Assembly: GCA_002104895.1 (NCBI GenBank)
Contig: MCFG01000501.1
Location: 2,501 to 40,937, forward strand
Length of the DNA: 38,437 nt
Source of the DNA: Anaeromyces robustus
Taxonomy: Eukaryota; Neocallimastigomycota; Neocallimastigomycetes; Neocallimastigales; Neocallimastigaceae
Direction of reading: 5' to 3'
The notes below the pieces were generated by a model. It was not told the DNA's origin. It saw nothing but the letters and a program-made list of their open reading frames with translations, and made no database searches. Below are positions 5,962-36,477 of the stretch, in pieces. Made by a program: the position numbers and the translations under genes. Numbering within the stretch: the stretch's first letter is position 1; every line of letters begins with the position of its first letter.

Positions 5962-6799
5962 TTAAAGTTCATCCTTAACAACAGTTCCCTATTAAATATT
6001 TTTTTAAAATTATAATAAGAAATATAAATTTTAATTATTTTCATTATTGATTATAATATTATTATATATATAATATTAAATGACTTCTTACCTTTTCAGA
6101 AACGTAGATACCATCAAGGAACTTACGGATATCCTTGTTCTTAACTAAACAGGATTGGTGGATGTTGGCAGCAGATTGAGAAACATTTTCAAGATCGTTA
6201 CCAGAAATGATGATTTCATCCTTTTGAGCTTGAGAGTAAGAAGCTTCAACACCATCAAGCATGTTAACTCTACGAATGATCTTTTCACCTAAGAAATTAC
6301 GGATTTCGACTAATTTACCTTCATCAGTGATGTTAACGTTAATTGGAAAGTGAGCAGCGACTAATCTCATCTTGTATTCAAATCCCTTTATTAATTATTA
6401 AAGGATATTTTATTTTATTCAATAATTTATACAAAATTAAATTATATTAAAATTATAAAAAATTTATAAAAAGTTGATATTAATATTTAATCATATTATC
6501 ATAAAAAACTTTAATTTCTATATTTATATTATGTATTAAATTTTTACCTTGGTAACACCCTTCATAAGGTTTTCAATGTGAGTACAGACGGTACGGATAC
6601 AAGCAACTTGCTTACGGTTACCGTGCCATAAGATAACTCTGAGCTTGTTGGCAGCAATACGCTTGATTTGGAAGTTAATGTGATTGAAATCCTTGTAAAG
6701 AACACCACGTGGACCCTTAACACGGATTTTACGGGCCTTAACTTCGATGGTAACACCTTCTGGGATGGTAATATCTCTGGTCTGGCAGATTTGCTTCAT
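5962..6799 (-). CDS. RPL9: 60S ribosomal protein L9 (uL6)
   Basis: Structural protein of the large cytoplasmic ribosomal subunit. Exons on the minus strand: 6799-6548 (84 codons), 6385-6092 (98 codons) and 5988-5962 (8 codons plus TAA). Both introns are phase 0 with donors GTAAAA and GTAAGA, and the product is 190 aa against about 190 in yeast and animals. Family blocks seen: [73 protein letters not shown] and [18 protein letters not shown]. The final exon is only 27 nt and ends GTVVKDEL. Codons prefer C and G endings (GCC, ACC, AAG, CTC), unlike neighbouring genes, as expected for very high expression. An AG 12 nt before the ATG could close a 5'-UTR intron. The identification is secure. Confidence 0.97.
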
Positions 6800-9966: not shown

Positions 9967-10079
9967 ATTTTATTTATCTTAAAAAAGGTTCTATTGCAGG
10001 TTTAATAGATATTATTCCTTGCTAATTTTATTCATCTTAAAAAGGTTCTATTACAGGTTTAATTAATTTTATTCCTTGC
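9967..10079. repeat. Imperfect tandem duplication of the kinesin-5 3' end
   Basis: Two copies of about 55 bp lie at 9967-10022 and 10026-10079 and differ at a handful of positions. Read on the minus strand, the gene-internal copy encodes [13 protein letters not shown] followed by the stop. The downstream copy would read QGIISIKPAIEPF and then LR before a stop, so the same short C-terminal peptide is specified twice in tandem, the second time beyond the stop codon. Confidence 0.8.
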
Positions 10080-12297
10080 ATATTTCTTAAAGATAAATCA
10101 TCTTTACTTTTTGGTGATTTATGATTTTTGTTTACTACAGCCGGAGTATTCGGAACAGATGAAGATCTTATTAATATCTTTTTCTCTGTAAAATTAAATC
10201 CCGCTAATGGTTTTTGATTTTTAAAAGTTTTCCTTGTTACCAAACTATTATGAGCAACATTATTATTATTATTATTGTTGTTGTTGTTGTTATAATTATT
10301 TATATTCATAGCAATATTTTTCTTTATACTACTTAGACTTACATCTAATACACCATTATCATCTTCATGATCTTTATTGTTTAATTTTTCTTCAAGTTCT
10401 ATAGCTGAATCCATTTTTTGAATAGATTTAGTCTTTTGTTCATTTTTCAATCTTAATCTTGTACCCCAACTATTTTTAGATTTCTTTTTAATTTTAATTT
10501 CTACAGAAGAATCACTACTATCAGAATTTGAATTTTCATTTTTTTCATCATTTATTAAAATTTCCACAGTACCTAAACTATTTGAATCTTCATTATCATC
10601 ATCATAGTTATCATTATGATCATTATTATTATTATCATTATCATTTAATGGAAATACTTTTTTATTACCTTCTGAAAAATCTTCATCATCTGTTGATTTA
10701 AATTCATTTATAAGATTATTCTCAGCAACAGATAAATTATTTTCTAAAAAAGATTCATTATCTTTCTCAATTTCTTCTTGTGAGTTATCTTCATTCTTCA
10801 ATAATGAAAAAGTATCTTTTCCATCTTCATTATTTAAAGAAATAGTTGAATTTTCTTTTCCTACAACAGAATCTTCATTATTATTGATAGTATTATTAAT
10901 GTTTAAATTAGATAAATTATTGGAATCAATATTATGACTCTTTATTAAATCATAATTAAAAAGATTATTTTTATTTTCTAATTCTTCAAGTCTCATTTCT
11001 TTATAATCATAATTTATATTATCATGTGATAAATATAATACTTCCTTTATACTGATATCATTTACAGTGAAATCATTATTATTCTTATCCTGTTTTTTAA
11101 TTTCGTTCATAGATTCTTCTTCTTTTTTATTATTATTATCATTTTGAATATCATCTTCATTATTATTTTCACTTTCATTTTCATTTTCATTCTCATTTTC
11201 ACTTTCATTTTCATTTTTATTTTCACTTTCACTTTCATTTTCATTTTCATTTTTATTTTTATTTTTATTTTTATTTTCATTTTCGTTTTCATCTATATTT
11301 AAAATTGCAATATTAGTATTTTCAGATTCTTTTTCATTTTCAATATCATTATTAACAATTACATCATTATCGTAATTGTTATGATTGTTGTTATTAATAT
11401 TGTTAATATTTTTAACTTTATTTTGATATAACTCTCTATATTTATTTAAAATGTTATCTAAATATATATAAATAGAAAAAAAAAAAAAAATTTATAATAT
11501 ATAATAAAATATAATAATTAATAGCTGATAGTAAAATCAAATTATATAATATGTACGTTTATAAAAACTTACCATGGTTTGGTGTCGTTTTCCAAGAATA
11601 TATATTGAAATATTTATTCTTTTCAGGACACTTATTTAATAATGGATTTTCTTTAAATATTGTATTAGATTTTTCTAATTCATCCTTTAATTGATTGGAT
11701 ACATTTTGATAATTATTATAATTATCAGATTTAATCCTTTCATTTTCATTATTCTAAAGAGAAAAAAGAAAAAAAAAAAAAAATAAATAAATAAATACAA
11801 ATAATTTATAGTGATAATAATAAATAAATAAATAAATAAAATATTTAATAAAGATTTAATTAACAACTTGGTATATTATATAAATAAAAATTATATAAAT
11901 ATTTATAAATAAAATTATATTTACATTTTTATTAATAGATTCTAAATATATATCAGATGATTTTATATTATCCATATAATTATTGTTAATAAACAATCTA
12001 TCTTTTTCAAGTTCTGTCATCATAGAATTATTAAATTCATCAACATTTTCTTTATAATCCTTTGATTTACATTCTAAATCATTTAATAATTTATTATTAG
12101 ATTCATTGAAGTCATTGAATTTTGAATCCATTTGTGTCATATTACTCTTCAATAATGAATCGAAAACATTATATTTAATCTTTGATTCATTAATAAAATT
12201 AAGATTATCCTATATATTTAATATAGTGAAATAACAATAATAAAAGATGATAAAAATATATATTAATCAATACTTAATTACAATAATATATTATTAT

Positions 12298-12333
<36 letters not shown>

Positions 12334-12461
12334 TTTTTATGATTCTCAATCTTTGCATTTAATGAAGTAATATAATTATTTAAAATGTTATCATTATTAT
12401 TAATATCTGTTTCAATATTCGTAAATTGACGATTAAATTGCTCAATTTCACTTCCCATATG

Positions 12462-12499
<38 letters not shown>

Positions 12500-13904
12500 T
12501 AAATATAAATATAAATATAATAATATCAAAAATTAAGGAATAAAAAACTGTTTCCATAAATTATTTAATTAATAATTAATAATTTGTAATAAATTTTTAT
12601 ACTTTATATATTTATACTAATATATACAAAATTAATATTATTAATAATAAAACTTAATATTAATATAAAAAGGATATCATTTGACATAATATTAAGACTT
12701 TCAGTAACTGGTTCAATGGTTTCAGTAAACATTTTACTATGCGTATCTGTAAAAGATTCAATTAAATCTTTAATATTATTTAAAAGTTCAGTTTTATCTT
12801 CTTTTATTTTTTTTAATTCCATGTTTCTTCTATCATGTACAAATTCTATAGTTTTCTTTAAATCTTCAATCTTAATACATTAAAATAATATAATAATATT
12901 AAATAGTTATATAAAAGAAGAAATAATTTAACAAAAAATTATTTATTTATTATTTAATTAGCTAATATTTTAATATTTTCAATAATTAATAATAATTATA
13001 ATAAATATACCTCTTTATTTTTTTGTTTTATAATATCATCTTTTACATTAATGATTTGATTCATCATTGAATTTGTAAATGATGACAAATCTTTCGTCAA
13101 ATCTTTAACTTCTTTATCAACCAAGTCATTATATTCATTAATCTTTATATATATAATATATATTAATATAGTGATAAGAAATTTAAAATGATAATGTTAA
13201 CGTTAATAAATAATACATATATATATATATATATTAATATAAAAAAAATACAAAATAATTACCATATTTTGTTTATAGTCATAAGAATTATTAAATGATT
13301 CAAACTCGTTTTCTATGGCTTTCATATTATCATCAAATAATTTATGATATTCCTTCATATAAATTGATTTTTCTTCTTTTATTAATTTATAAAGATTATC
13401 ATTATATAAGATATTATCAAGTGATAATTGGTTAAATTTAGTTACAATAACTTTTTTGTCTTGCATTCTTTTGTCTACTTCAACAGATATATCTTTTAAA
13501 TTCTAAAATAACGGAAATATAATGATTGTATTTTAATATATTAAATATATATATATATAAATAAATAAACAAAAACAAAAACAAAGAAAAAAAAATAAAA
13601 ATAAAAATAAAAATATTTAAATAAAATAAAATATTTAAGTATATATAAATAAAAGTAAAAAACTACCTTTATTTTCTCATTAATAAAGAGCTGAATAGAA
13701 TTAAATATATACTGATCATAATCATTATTTTGTGATTTAATATTATTTAATCTAATAATTAAATCATTCATTAATTTAATAGTACGATCACGAAAATCAG
13801 TAAATATTATCCGATTATCACTTTCTAATGAAAGTTTATTATCTATAATTTTATTGCATTTATATTTAAAATTTATTTTAATCATTAAAATGTATATATA
13901 TATA

Positions 13905-13956
<52 letters not shown>

Positions 13957-16900
13957 AGAGCATATAAATGTAAAAATATATTAATTTAAATATAAATAAT
14001 TACCAGCAAAAAGATGGAACTTATATAATTCAATTGAGCAATTTTTCAAAATTTTATTTAAATCATTTAAAATATTATTTAAATTATCTTCAGTTAACAT
14101 ATGAGATTTCAATAAAACACCTTCTTCTGTCAATTTTTGTTGAATATTAGAAATATCTAAGTCTTTTTGTATAATAGTTTTTATATTTTCATCAATTGTG
14201 TCCTAATATACAGCAAAATAATATTTATTTATTTATTTATTTAAAGAGTGAAAAAAAATCACAATTAGTAATTATTAATAATAATTTAAATAAAGAGTAT
14301 ATTTAAATTATCTTACCTTTAAATCTTGAATCTTATCTGATTTATCCTTTAAACTATGTTTTAATCCTAATATTTCATTTTCTTGATCATCAATTAATTT
14401 CTTTAAACGTTTATTTTCCTCAACATTAACAGAACTAGAAAATTTCATTTGATTATAATCTTCGTTCGATAAATAAACGCCATCTTTTTCTCTTGCACAC
14501 TAGAAAATGTTATAAAAAATAGTAAAAAAAAAATCAATAACATTAAACAAAATTCAAATATTAACATAAAAAATTTAATTAAATATATACTCTTAACATA
14601 TTCTTAAGTTGTTTAATTTCATTCATATAATCTTGAATTAAAGCCTTCTTTGTCATATGTTGATTAACTTCTGGTTTATTTCTAATATTTTTAGCTCTGA
14701 ATGCATAATCTAATGTACTTAATGATTCTTCAATACTGTATCTTGTTGGTGCAACAGTTGCAATAATGCATGTTTTTGTTTTACCTTATTATTAAATAAA
14801 ATATATATATATATATATATAATTAATTAATTAATTATTAATTATTAATTATTAAAATAAAAATTAAAAAAAAAAAAATACATAAATAAAAATTAAAAAA
14901 AAAAAAAATACATAAATAAAAATTAAAGTATATAAAATACAAAGAAAAAAAATAATAATAATTATAATATTAATGATACTATATAATTTAAAAATATTAA
15001 AAAATTTTCATTAGTAACAAAATACCTCCTAATGAATCTTGAAGTAAACGAGTTAATTTAGATTCACTGTATAAAAAATATAAATATATACAATATATAC
15101 AATATATATATGAATATATTACTCTATTATTAAAATAAATCATTGTAAAATTTTGATTAAAAATAAAAATTACCGATATGGAATATGTTGAGCTTTTTCT
15201 ACTAATGAATTAATTACACGACCTAATGCAAGTAACGATTGATTAATCATTCCACTAATCAATATATATATATAGAGAGAGTGTGTGTATGTATGTGAAA
15301 GAGAGAGAGAGAGAGAGTAATACCACATATTAATATATTAATATAATAAAAAATAAAAAAAAATAAAAAAAAAATATATATATATATATATAATAAAAAA
15401 ATAATTATAAAACATACGCTTCTCTTGCTTGTTTATTTTCAGCACCTGATCTACCAATACTTTCAGAACCTGCCAAATCAACTAAATTCAATTTTCCTAT
15501 TTTAATTAAATCTTGATCTTGAGTGTTTTCAGTTATATGTACTGTAATAGAGTAAACACAATGAGAACGACTATATAATATTAAAATAAATATTGATTAA
15601 TATTAATATCATTATATACAAAACTTTAAAACTAATATAAATAATAATAAAAAATATAGATAAAATAATAAATTGATATAATAATTAATATATAAAAATT
15701 ATACCTTGATCTTTCATTATAATTTGTTGATGCAGTTTTTCTTTCATTCATACCTTTTTGAAATAGTTGAATTGCATCATATACATTTTTTACTGGAATT
15801 TCTTCTAAATTTTTGACAGTTACTTTTTTAAATGAATTCTTTCAAATAAAAATTTAATACATTCAATTAATTAATTAATTAATTAATATCACTACAAAAT
15901 AGTATAAAACAAAAGAAAATATGTATATTATAATACAATATATTTAAAATATGTAGAATGTCAATATTTACTTCATAAAACTGTAATTTTAATGATGTAT
16001 CAGATGTTAATAAATCCTTCAATTGTTCATTATAAATTTCAATGCATGAAACTCTTAAAGAGTACTTTTTGTTTTATAATATATAGTGTATAATAAATCA
16101 TTAATAATGGTTATAGCAATTAAATAATAAATCTTAATAATTATAACATATTTTGAAAATAAATATAAACCTCGATTCCATCCTTATTTAAATAATTAAA
16201 GAATTCATCCAAAGCTCTGGGTATCATACCACAATCTTTTCCAATTATAATATCATCTTTAGTAATTTTTGTTAAATCACCTTCCATAGTATATCTATTA
16301 AAATTTATTAATATAAAAATAGTTAAATACAAATATATAAATATATACATATATACAAGGAATAATTAAAATTTTCCTACGTTTTTCCAGTTCCCTACAT
16401 AATTATATTGGAATATCAAAAATATCTATTAATATATACAATAAAATAATCATTAAAATAAATAAATACATATATTAAAAATAAATTCATACTGTTTGAC
16501 CATATGCAAAAATTGTACAGTTATATCCTTCTAATACCTTCATAATAAAATACAAAAGTGATTTTAATATATAAAAGTATAACTTTAATAGCTATATTAT
16601 ATAATAATATAATAATATAAATTACTTCTTTTATCATTGGTGACACTATTTCATTATAAATTGTTGATTGTGTATCTATTTAAAAATAATTAAGTATTAA
16701 AAGAAAATAATATATAATAATTATTATATATAATAATAATTATATCATATTAATAATTAAATATGTCATCTCATTTAAAAATATATTCAAATAATAAGTA
16801 TAAATTAATAATATTATACTATTTTATAGATTATGTAATTCATACCATGTTGACTAAATACTTTATCGAATGAAAATGTTCTTGTTGTTGTTGCATGTGG

Positions 16901-17041
16901 CGTTATTGCCACAACTTGATTTGAATCTTTTGGAGTGATCGAAATCGGATATCCTTCAATAATTTCTTTTTCAGTTGGAGGCCTTATTCTCACAACAACT
17001 TGAATATTTGTTTCCTTTTTATTATCTTTTATGGAATTCAT
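10037..17041 (-). CDS. Kinesin-5 (BimC/Eg5/Cut7-type) mitotic motor, 21 exons, 1420 aa
   Basis: Plus-end motor, tetrameric in the family, that slides antiparallel spindle microtubules apart. Exons on the minus strand: 17041-16846, 16675-16626, 16537-16493, 16394-16381, 16294-16171, 16064-15972, 15838-15705, 15570-15418, 15254-15174, 15066-15026, 14784-14591, 14499-14317, 14202-14004, 13842-13667, 13502-13263, 13142-13011, 12870-12678, 12460-12333, 12209-11925, 11753-11573, 11457-10037. All phases agree. Motor domain about 1-345: P-loop GQTGTGKT at 95-102, switch I NERSSRSH at 215-222, switch [10 protein letters not shown] at 248-255. [20 protein letters not shown] at 341-360 is the kinesin-5 neck signature. 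A coiled-coil stalk follows, with a BimC-box-like segment at about 929-955 whose usual Cdk-site Thr is Cys929. The last 470 residues are an Asn/Glu/Ser/Asp-rich tail, longer than usual. The intron between exons 17 and 18 looks AT-AC. Kinesin-5 identity is firm; the tail extent rests on one long in-frame exon. Confidence 0.93.
11110..11305 (-). repeat. In-frame hexanucleotide-type repeat in the kinesin-5 tail
   Basis: Degenerate GAAAAT/GAAAGT/AAAAAT units encode alternating Glu-Asn, Glu-Ser and Lys-Asn dipeptides within the last kinesin-5 exon. This is typical slippage-driven low complexity, and the other frames also stay open because the unit length is a multiple of three. Confidence 0.85.
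12461..12677 (-). other. Candidate U12-type AT-AC intron in kinesin-5
   Basis: Read on the minus strand, exon 17 ends ...TCAAATG and the intron opens ATATCCTTT, an exact match to the minor-spliceosome AT-AC donor consensus. TTCCTTAAT at 12540-12532 exactly matches the U12 branch-site consensus. The first AC or AG after it is TATAC, ending at 12461, and splicing there restores the frame (...SND then MGSEIEQF...). The branch-to-acceptor distance of about 70 nt is longer than typical and is taken up by TTTATA and TTA repeats. A GTCAAA...AAG alternative would also keep frame but has a poor donor. Confidence 0.65.
14855..14923. repeat. 29-bp tandem repeat in a kinesin-5 intron
   Basis: A 29-bp unit, beginning AAATAAAAATT and containing a 13-A run and ATACAT, is present about 2.4 times in the intron 14785-15025. 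The copies are essentially identical, so the duplication is recent. Confidence 0.85.
15265..15317. repeat. Compound GA/GT microsatellite in a kinesin-5 intron
   Basis: TATATA, then GAGAGA, GTGTGT, GTATGTATGT and (GA)n follow each other within the intron between exons 8 and 9. It is a G-containing microsatellite, conspicuous in an otherwise A/T-only intron. Confidence 0.85.
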
Positions 17042-33849: not shown

Positions 33850-36477
33850 TTATTATTATTATTATTTAATTTTATATAGATTAATAAAATTTTGGGATAT
33901 TAGAAGTAATGGATCATATTTACATCGTAATAATCCTGTACCAGTTGAAGTATCTATCCATTCTACTCATTCAAAGAGACCACATGGATTTTCATCGTTA
34001 TCATTAGATTCAACGGGAAGATATTTATTTTCTGCTTGTACTGATAATAGGTAAATATTTATTATTATTAATTATAAGAAAAAACATTCAATAACGAAAT
34101 TTTTTTTACAATTTTTTTTATTTAATAATGATATGATTAATTAATATAAAAATAAATATATTAAAATATTATTTAAAAGTATATATATGTACAATACATT
34201 GAATCTTGGAAAACCAGTTTATCGTTTTACTTCACCAACTTATAAATGTTCAACCTTTTATATTAAAACTTCTATTAGTCCAGATAATCGTTTTATTGCT
34301 AGTGGTTCATCTGATAATCATGTTTATATATGGGATATTACAGCACCACATCGTGCTCCTGTTAAATTAAAAGGTCATGAAAATGAAGTAACTGCGGTTT
34401 CATGGTGTCCTATTGATATTAAACAGGTTCGGTTTTTTTTCAATTTAATTTTTATATATTTGTTATTTTTTTAATAATTATATATCTATATATTATTGTA
34501 TAATTTAATATATATATTTAATAAAAATAAACAATAATTATAAATAATGACGGTCGTAAATATAATAATATAAAATAAAAAAATAATATTAATGAAAAAA
34601 ATAATATAATTTATTATTATTTTTAAATTAAAGATGGTAACTTGTTCTGATGATACTTCAATTAGAATTTGGAATATGAATAAAGAACTTGAAGAAAAAT
34701 GTATGAATGATTTATATTTAAAAACAACTTGGGGTCATGTCGTGGAAGATGTAACAGTTGAAACTTCAGAAGGTAATAATTAATGATAAAAATATTTTAC
34801 AATATATATATATATATAAATTCGTTTATTTAATAATTTAATATTTATAATAAAATTTTATAATTTATGTTTTTTTTTTTTTTATTATTTATATTTTAAT
34901 TATGATAATCATAAATCATTATTATTATTATTATTATTTATTGATGAATAGATACACCAAATATTCAAGTTAACAAAGAAAATATTAGTAGTAATAATAA
35001 TTCATTATTAGATTCTACAAGTTCACCAACAACATCATTTTTCAATTTTCCAAATACAATATCTTATTCTTATGATTCAAATGATTCACCTTGTTCTTCA
35101 TCACCTCTTTCTAGATTTAAATATCATAATAATGCTATTCTTTTAGATGATGAAGCATCGACTTCTTCAACTCCTACACCTCTTTCAACTTCATCATCAT
35201 CTTCTTCTACAATTATTAATTCATCATCATCATTTATTAATCGTCCCATTTTTTCTTTTGCTTCATCATCATCATCATCATCATCGACATCGACATCCAA
35301 TTCTAACTTAATTAATGATACAAATTTAAATATAAATACTAATTCAAATTCAAATTCAAATTCAAATAATCTAGTACGTTCTATATCAACAGTTTCAAAT
35401 CCATTTTATTTTCCTCAAACACCAACAAAAGATGCTACTACTCCTTCAAAATTAGTTAATGATTCACCACTATCTTCTTCTATTACTGATTATTTCAGTA
35501 CTTTATCAACTAGATCACCAATGCCAACTATACCTCCACCAAAGATTTCTAATTCTTCTTCAAAACAGAAACAAACTGAATTACCATTAACTTTTTTATA
35601 TCCTAAAAATAATTCTTCATCAATATCATTTATAATGCCAAATGAAAAATCATCATCATCATCATCATCAAAATTACAATCCTCTTCTTCATCATTATCA
35701 TCAACGTTACAGTCCTTTTCCTCATCATCGTCATCATCATCATCATCATCATTAGCATCAGCATCAACATTATCATCATTTTCATCATCACCTCTTTCTA
35801 AAAAAGTTTTTCCTCCAGAGACCCCACTTACTCGATCAAAATCTATTCCGTTGGGATCAACATCTTCTATTCCTCCATCTACAGCTTCTTCATCTACATC
35901 TTCATCATTTCCTCCTTCATCACCAAAAATCACAAGAGTTCGTCATACGTCATCTTATAAAAAATCTTCAGGTTATTATAATCAATCCACTTTACAAAAA
36001 AGTTTTTCTTCATTATCTAATCCAAATTCAAATGCAAATATTAATATTAATACAAATTCCAATTCTAACGCAAATGGGAATTATTCATTATCTTTATCAT
36101 CATCATTATCATCATCCTCTTCAACATTAATTTCCCCTTCTACATCAACTTCTCATTCAGCTTCTTCTTCTACATCTTCTTCTCCACTAAATCTAAATTC
36201 AATACCAAAATCATCATCAATACAAACTTCAACATCAACGTCAGCATCGACATCCAAATCCGTATCAGGATTTGCATCACCTATTATTAATATTGTATCA
36301 CCACCTTCTTCTCCTTGTACATCAGCACCAACTTCACCTGTACCTAAACGTAAAAGAACTTTAATGGATTATTTTTCACCTAATACAAATACTAATGATA
36401 ATAATAAAAAGAAGAAAAAAAAGAAGGCAAAAGCTGTTGAAACTGATGATGAAGAATCTGAATCAGATGAATTATAA
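31514..36477 (+). CDS. CDT2: CDT2/DTL, WD40 substrate receptor of CRL4 ubiquitin ligase, 12 exons, 1017 aa
   Basis: CDT2 (DTL) recruits PCNA-bound CDT1, CDK-inhibitor and histone-methylase substrates to CUL4-DDB1 in S phase. Exons: 31514-31650, 31981-32177, 32338-32529, 32705-32784, 32936-33056, 33195-33275, 33386-33483, 33602-33666, 33880-34050, 34180-34426, 34634-34772, 34952-36477. All phases agree and the total is 3054 nt. Family blocks in order: [120 protein letters not shown], and [24 protein letters not shown] (257-260) and WDIR (329-332) are the DDB1-binding WDxR motifs typical of CRL4 receptors. Residues from about 510 form a Ser/Thr/Pro/Asn-rich tail with PIP-like SITDYF (686-691) and RTLMDYF (978-984), and the protein ends in a Lys-run and an acidic tip. 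The donor GTTCGG of intron 10 is unusual. Confidence 0.95.
33761..33852 (+). repeat. (ATTT)n microsatellite in CDT2 intron 8
   Basis: About 23 uninterrupted units precede a TTA tract and the TATATAG acceptor. The arrangement is the same as in TAF12 intron 3: a sense-strand TTTA array shortly before the 3' splice site. Confidence 0.93.

Follow-up and report, generated by a model that had tools for sequence, protein, structure and literature searches.

A probable U12-type AT-AC intron in the kinesin-5 gene of Anaeromyces robustus and the branch-to-acceptor distances of minor introns in its genome

Among the hallmarks ascribed to U12-type introns is a short distance between branch site and 3′ splice site, with a published optimum of 11-13 nt (PMC3584512). 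The programs that find such introns have it built in: intronIC, in its 2020 description, scores branch sites within -55 to -5 (PMC7367187), and the work behind MIDB admitted a branch site up to -40. Intron 17 of a kinesin-5 gene in the gut fungus Anaeromyces robustus carries the sequence motifs of this class and places its acceptor 71 nt past the branch motif. Is it a minor-spliceosome intron, is the long interval peculiar to one locus, and how would such an acceptor be chosen?

The kinesin-5 gene and its intron 17

The window, by which we mean the whole 38,437-nt stretch of DNA that was analyzed, is part of contig C448 in a genome scanned over 70.2 Mb and 769 contigs, with a GC content in the window that varies between 12% and 26% from one 2-kb segment to another. 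It contains a gene whose motor domain scores 365.9 bits against Pfam Kinesin and whose best PDB relatives, Klp61F, KIF11, and cut7, identify it as a kinesin-5. In the gene model, 19 of the 20 introns are GT-AG, as an earlier note on this DNA had read them, and measure 86-241 nt (n=19); intron 17 is AT-AC. A 178-residue stalk query against the whole genome, made in search of a kinesin paralogue, matched the gene's own three exons only. Elsewhere in the window, at 35490-36477, low-complexity open reading frames overlap on opposite strands, Ser-rich on the plus strand and Asp-rich on the minus strand. The gene and the parts of its intron 17 are as follows.

10037..17041, minus strand: kinesin-5 gene (gene model with 21 exons and 20 introns, 1420 aa; Pfam and PDB relatives)
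12678..12870, minus strand: exon 17, ending ...ATGTCAAATG, phase 1 (gene model)
12461..12677, minus strand: intron 17, AT-AC, assigned to the U12 type from motifs and gene model, 217 nt
12669..12677, minus strand: 5′ splice site ATATCCTTT, a 9/9 match to RTATCCTTT
12532..12540, minus strand: branch-site motif TTCCTTAAT, an exact match to the U12 branch motif
12462..12525, minus strand: tandem repeat of 6-nt and 18-nt units, which occupies the greater part of the branch-to-acceptor interval
12461..12462, minus strand: 3′ splice site AC (TATAC), the first AC or AG past the branch motif
12333..12460, minus strand: exon 18, beginning AT ATG GGA (gene model)

Excision of the 217 nt leaves the frame intact in phase 1 (...MSN/D/MGS...), and the terminal AC ends 71 nt past the last base of the branch motif, across an interval that holds no earlier AG or AC. 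Donor, exact branch motif, AT-AC termini, and restored frame all bear out the U12 type that the earlier note had proposed, together with its reading of TATAC as the first AC or AG past the branch, where the frame resumes. The short branch-to-acceptor distance, a usual but not a defining U12 feature, is absent from this intron.

Each motif alone occurs in the window at chance level (RTATCCTTT, 2 seen vs 1.90 expected; TTCCTTRAY, 2 seen vs 2.58 expected). What lifts intron 17 above chance is the pairing of the two motifs at a frame-restoring exon edge, together with the genome-wide excess of such pairs described below. The window holds a further motif pair, at 6400-6408 and 6113-6121 on the minus strand, which was rejected as a chance occurrence: within a gene that reads as ribosomal-protein L9/uL6, its donor motif sits inside a GT-AG intron, just before the acceptor of that intron, and its branch motif lies in an exon.

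The stalk region is covered by no family profile, so that frame and motif carry the assignment of the kinesin-5 acceptor. In the stretch from exon 17 to exon 18, an open frame is compatible with 87 pairs of canonical termini, namely, 64 AT-AC pairs (intron 17 included), 22 GT-AG pairs, and 1 GC-AG pair. Splicing could use one of the 22 GT-AG pairs and so remove a U2-type intron in place of intron 17; candidates include 12617-12548 (70 nt), 12737-12407 (331 nt), and 12685-12451 (235 nt), the last being the splicing that the earlier note had named as its own refutation. In leave-one-out scoring against matrices built on the 19 GT-AG introns of the gene, donor 12737 outscores 1 of the 19 real donors, and acceptor 12451 resembles a typical real one (9/19 better). 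Yet in 20 of the 22 pairs, 12685-12451 included, the donor scores below all 19 real ones, and the two pairs that use donor 12737 would either lose 39 stalk residues or lose 21 and gain 30, 90% hydrophobic. Removal of 12617-12548 would add 49 residues, 86% of them ILVFMYW compared with 45% in the most hydrophobic stalk window of that length, and at 70 nt this intron would be shorter than every GT-AG intron of the gene. Any such intron would moreover turn the 9/9 donor and the exact branch motif into a coincidence, and we consider it highly improbable that a GT-AG intron is removed here.

That the major spliceosome removes this same AT-AC intron is less credible still. Some AT-AC introns are indeed U2-type (PMC2831892), but the sodium-channel examples carry G at +5 (PMC2831892), whereas the kinesin-5 donor reads TCCTTT from +4 to +9 and is followed by an exact U12 branch site; we give this possibility next to no weight. 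Intron 17, at 12677-12461 on the minus strand, is thus very probably a minor-spliceosome AT-AC intron with an acceptor that would be found by scanning and with a spacing rule that appears relaxed here, a joint reading drawn from sequence.

Minor introns across the genome and their branch-to-acceptor distances

The genome was scanned for TATCCTTT followed by TTCCTTRAY at 40-100 nt (34 matches vs 7 for the reversed pattern) and for ATATCCTTT followed by the branch motif at 101-161 nt (10 matches vs 1 in the control). Coding flanks join in frame at 24 of these 44 matches (15/34 from the first scan and 9/10 from the second), which gives the kinesin-5 intron 23 U12-like companions; a lack of other such introns was among the refuting conditions of the earlier note. 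As the patterns demand an exact donor and branch motif, so does membership in the set of 24; assignment was by eye, and the first four or five acceptors were considered per locus, a range extended by eye for XPG. The 20 matches set aside comprise 7 with T before TATCCTTT, which were inspected but not translated, 8 with TTCCTTGAY (one match being both), and 6 (L017, L032, L034, L040, L049, and L050) without joining coding flanks. L017 and L050 use the same branch motif, and L039 and L043 are an identical printed match.

The branch motif is TTCCTTAAY in all 24 introns, and none of the eight TTCCTTGAY matches qualifies (Fisher 0.0007). Twenty-two introns are AT-AC and two GT-AG; 14 are in phase 1, 5 in phase 0, and 5 in phase 2. 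The ATATCCTTT donor, TTCCTTAAY branch site, AC acceptor, and phase-1 excess (14/24) are shared with U12-type AT-AC introns of animals and plants, as are the U12, U4atac, and U6atac RNAs. The AT-AC share, at 22/24, differs from the 24% given for human (PMC8280824). As side observations on composition, donor position +10 is T in 19/24 introns (p 0.003; one of nine positions tested), and acceptor position -3 is T in 20/24.

Between the last base of the branch motif and that of the intron, the 24 distances are 9, 10, 10, 10, 11, 12, 12, 12, 14, 20, 24, 33, 36, 37, 39, 50, 53, 67, 71 (kinesin), 74, 84, 87, 119, and 171 nt. They thus range from 9 to 119 nt, with one possible 171 (XPG), unlike the animal and plant introns with their optimum of 11-13 nt. 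Since 9 of the 24 reach at least 50 nt, the 71 nt of kinesin-5 are ordinary for this genome and not the freak of one repeat. The earlier note had ascribed a distance of about 70 nt to expansion of the repeat, and the repeat (12462-12525) does fill 64 of the 71 nt; it explains the sequence of this intron only and is not a general cause, given that long distances are common among the 24 introns and are made of unrelated sequence (e.g., poly-T in L053). The branch motif falls outside -55 to -5 in 9/24 introns, kinesin-5 included, and beyond -40 in 13/24. A cluster at 9-20 nt holds 10 of the 24, above the prediction from base composition (p 0.001-0.002), which suggests that the old optimum is still visible and that a long tail has been added to it. 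Intervals longer than 30 nt are rich in T (61% vs 50% between donor and branch), a further difference from the animal and plant introns.

Support for the individual acceptors is graded. Alignments are free of gaps at the junction for GBE1 (67 nt), RAD2/XPG (171 nt), CDK (33 nt), and OST3 (50 nt), and Pfam matches extend across it with at most one net gap for KTI12 (84 nt, one gap), EXO84 (24 nt), formin FH2 (9 nt), eIF2A (10 nt), and ATG9 (12 nt). The TOPBP1 alignment (53 nt) has one gap close after the junction, tectonic (119 nt) scores 21.5, just below the Pfam cut-off of 22, and the RRM family match of RBM19 stops before the junction. The acceptors of L023, L053, L019, and DHHC, which have no Pfam match, are based on open frames only. 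Gene labels are backed by family searches for eIF2A, ATG9, GCP, TTL, BRCT, RRM, KTI12, EXO84, FH2, GBE1, RAD2/XPG, CDK, TOPBP1, and OST3; the others are our own.

Two pairs of loci lie close together. L056 and L057 (G000:C667:185975-190209) are U12-type AT-AC introns that probably belong to one TOPBP1-like gene; 4 kb separates them, and their branch-to-acceptor distances are 11 and 53 nt. L048 and L059 (G000:C759, ~9 kb apart) are TTLL-like paralogues with a U12-type intron at the same codon; their 12-nt branch-to-acceptor stretches are identical, and their donor-to-branch spacings are 89 and 135 nt, respectively.

Choice of the acceptor

In the mechanism that we favor, the 3′ splice site would be found by scanning downstream of the branch to the first usable AC, or AG for the GT-AG subtype. 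With the spacing rule relaxed in this genome, that first AC may lie 50-120 nt away where C and G are very scarce, and 71 nt away in kinesin-5. From 8 nt past the branch to the acceptor, all 24 introns are free of AG (0 in 826 nt, compared with 29 in the 2281 nt that precede the branch; Fisher 1.8e-4), an absence that fits scanning and that none of 5000 mononucleotide shuffles reproduced (mean 8.1 AGs). Avoidance of AC is weaker than that of AG, with 5 occurrences in 826 nt (Fisher p 0.17; mono-shuffle p 0.012). In 21/24 introns, the assigned acceptor is the earliest dinucleotide of its type from 9 nt past the branch onward; the three that skip an AC in this range are DHHC (at 17 nt), ATG9 (at 10 nt), and XPG, which passes ACs at 38, 110, and 163 nt before its 171-nt acceptor and may have another branch site. 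A parallel exists among U2-type introns with distant branch points and AG exclusion zones (PMC1431707), which likewise combine a distant branch with the lack of an AG before the acceptor; those are major-spliceosome introns, whereas the introns described here are minor-spliceosome introns that mostly end in AC.

A U12-type intron might also keep the customary spacing if its true branch were a degenerate motif close to 12461 and TTCCTTAAT a decoy. The known optimum of 11-13 nt (PMC3584512) and the excess of introns in the 9-20 nt cluster both favor such an arrangement, but the kinesin-5 segment contains no C before the terminal AC, and in the nine introns of at least 50 nt the windows near the acceptor match the branch motif no better (mean best 6.1/9 matches) than same-size windows upstream of the branch (6.2). 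We judge a decoy quite unlikely in kinesin-5; in XPG, at 171 nt, the motif may be one.

RNA structure between branch and acceptor could bring the AC near and make the effective distance short. Minimum-free-energy folds do shorten the interval from 119 to 8 nt in tectonic and from 71 to 26 nt in kinesin, and L023 folds better than shuffled sequence (z -2.0). Of the 13 intervals over 30 nt, however, the other 12 range from z -1.0 to +1.7 against dinucleotide shuffles, and no structure is predicted for L053 (87 nt), RBM19 (37 nt), or CDK (33 nt). Folding is the least improbable of the alternatives and still an unlikely one. Because structure fails for most long intervals and no second branch-like motif is seen near the acceptor in the nine longest, scanning from the branch would be the most likely mode of acceptor choice.

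Minor-spliceosome components and the U6atac change

The genome search returned U12 RNA at 57.4 bits (Rfam cut-off 53), U6atac RNA at 61.5 bits (cut-off 33), and a U4atac candidate at 40.4 bits, short of its cut-off of 53; when E values up to 1 were admitted, 1/14 control genomes matched the U4atac family as well. The U4atac and U6atac sequences lie on different contigs and pair over 14 bp in stem II, with a predicted energy of -27.2 kcal/mol compared with -27.1 for the two consensus sequences. The mixed pairs give -19.9 (consensus U6atac with own U4atac) and -25.1 kcal/mol (own U6atac with consensus U4atac), so that the changes in the two RNAs appear to fit each other. Stem I is predicted to be weak (own pair -7.6 vs consensus -13.3, and own U6atac with consensus U4atac -12.8 kcal/mol), a result against perfect U4atac/U6atac co-evolution. 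For U11, no Rfam match was obtained (39 of 6831 candidates scored). A pattern that we take to represent the U11 5′ end, used with two mismatches, gave 9 matches vs 5 in the control, and none of the 9 loci resembles an Rfam family even at an E threshold of 5.

Among the proteins, U11/U12-25K is encoded on contig C92, where one exon scores 37.2 bits against PF18036, over the Pfam cut-off, and the exons joined by eye reach 62.3 bits (PDB 8r7n_B, E 2.4e-6). A homologue of CENATAC (CCDC84) on contig C35 is matched in two exons (66.4 and 29.3 bits), one N-terminal and one C-terminal, that are separated by 1.6 kb; the C-terminal part reads ...PLWMIDSS...WIPNFGGIWNSGPR. As CENATAC is reported to promote splicing of AT-AN minor introns (PMC8280824), its presence fits the AT-AC excess among the introns described here. 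A 25-residue profile of the 48K zinc finger yielded no candidate; with so short a profile, a search by single exons says little. The retention of a minor spliceosome, as supposed in the earlier note, is thus supported by the U12, U6atac, and U4atac RNAs, U11/U12-25K, the CENATAC homologue, and the 23 further introns; U11 and 48K, which it had also named, were not found in these searches.

The U6atac gene (L002 1648-1501; G000:C1:239650-239797, minus strand) reads GUGUUGUAUGAGCCGAGAGACAG where the Rfam consensus reads GUGUUGUAUGAAAGGAGAGAAGG, a change from AAAGGA to AGCCGA that is seen in one genome and in the one copy reaching threshold (46 of 1013 candidates scored). We take AAAGGA to be the segment that pairs with the donor UCCUUU. 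The predicted pairing of U6atac with the 24 donors drops from a mean of -7.9 to -2.9 kcal/mol. A scan for an altered donor class (ATATCNNNN with TTCCTTAAC at 40-100 nt) gave 81 matches vs 152 in the control; 9 of the 81 begin ATATCCTTT, and no other class stood out. As the remaining 72 were not inspected locus by locus, rare altered donors may still occur. In this one genome, the T enrichment at +10 would fit a shifted pairing with GAGAGA, and U6atac is predicted to form a 5′ intramolecular hairpin (-6.5 kcal/mol) that is possibly new.

Taken jointly, the evidence permits a tentative proposal, whose chances we put somewhat short of even. The minor spliceosome of this lineage may have lost its fixed branch-to-acceptor ruler and may, like the major spliceosome, reach the first AC or AG by scanning over as much as 120 nt or beyond; its U6atac, with AAAGGA changed to AGCCGA, may do without canonical donor pairing, donor choice proceeding via U11 and proteins such as CENATAC while the donors still read ATATCCTTT.

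Minor introns and minor snRNAs have been reported in Piromyces finnis, Neocallimastix californiae, Spizellomyces, Rhizophagus, and Basidiobolus (PMC10639083, 2023). With minor introns of Neocallimastigomycetes already in print, the presence of the machinery is therefore no news. What is new here, as far as we found in print, is the stretched branch-to-acceptor distance: our literature search, which left most subscription papers and all bioRxiv preprints outside its scope, turned up no report of long branch-to-acceptor intervals among minor introns and no study devoted to minor splicing in gut fungi. The consulted parts of the survey of early-branching fungi give no branch-to-acceptor distances (PMC10639083). 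It used intronIC at default settings; if the range of -55 to -5 was kept, 9/24 of the branch motifs described here would lie outside it, and minor introns of AT-rich genomes may be undercounted.

That 9/24 sampled introns reach at least 50 nt suggests that the short distance rule is not intrinsic to the machinery. As such, this genome is a natural setting in which to study 3′ splice-site choice by the minor spliceosome, and the U6atac change offers a second, separate test of whether minor splicing truly requires U6atac to pair with the 5′ splice site.
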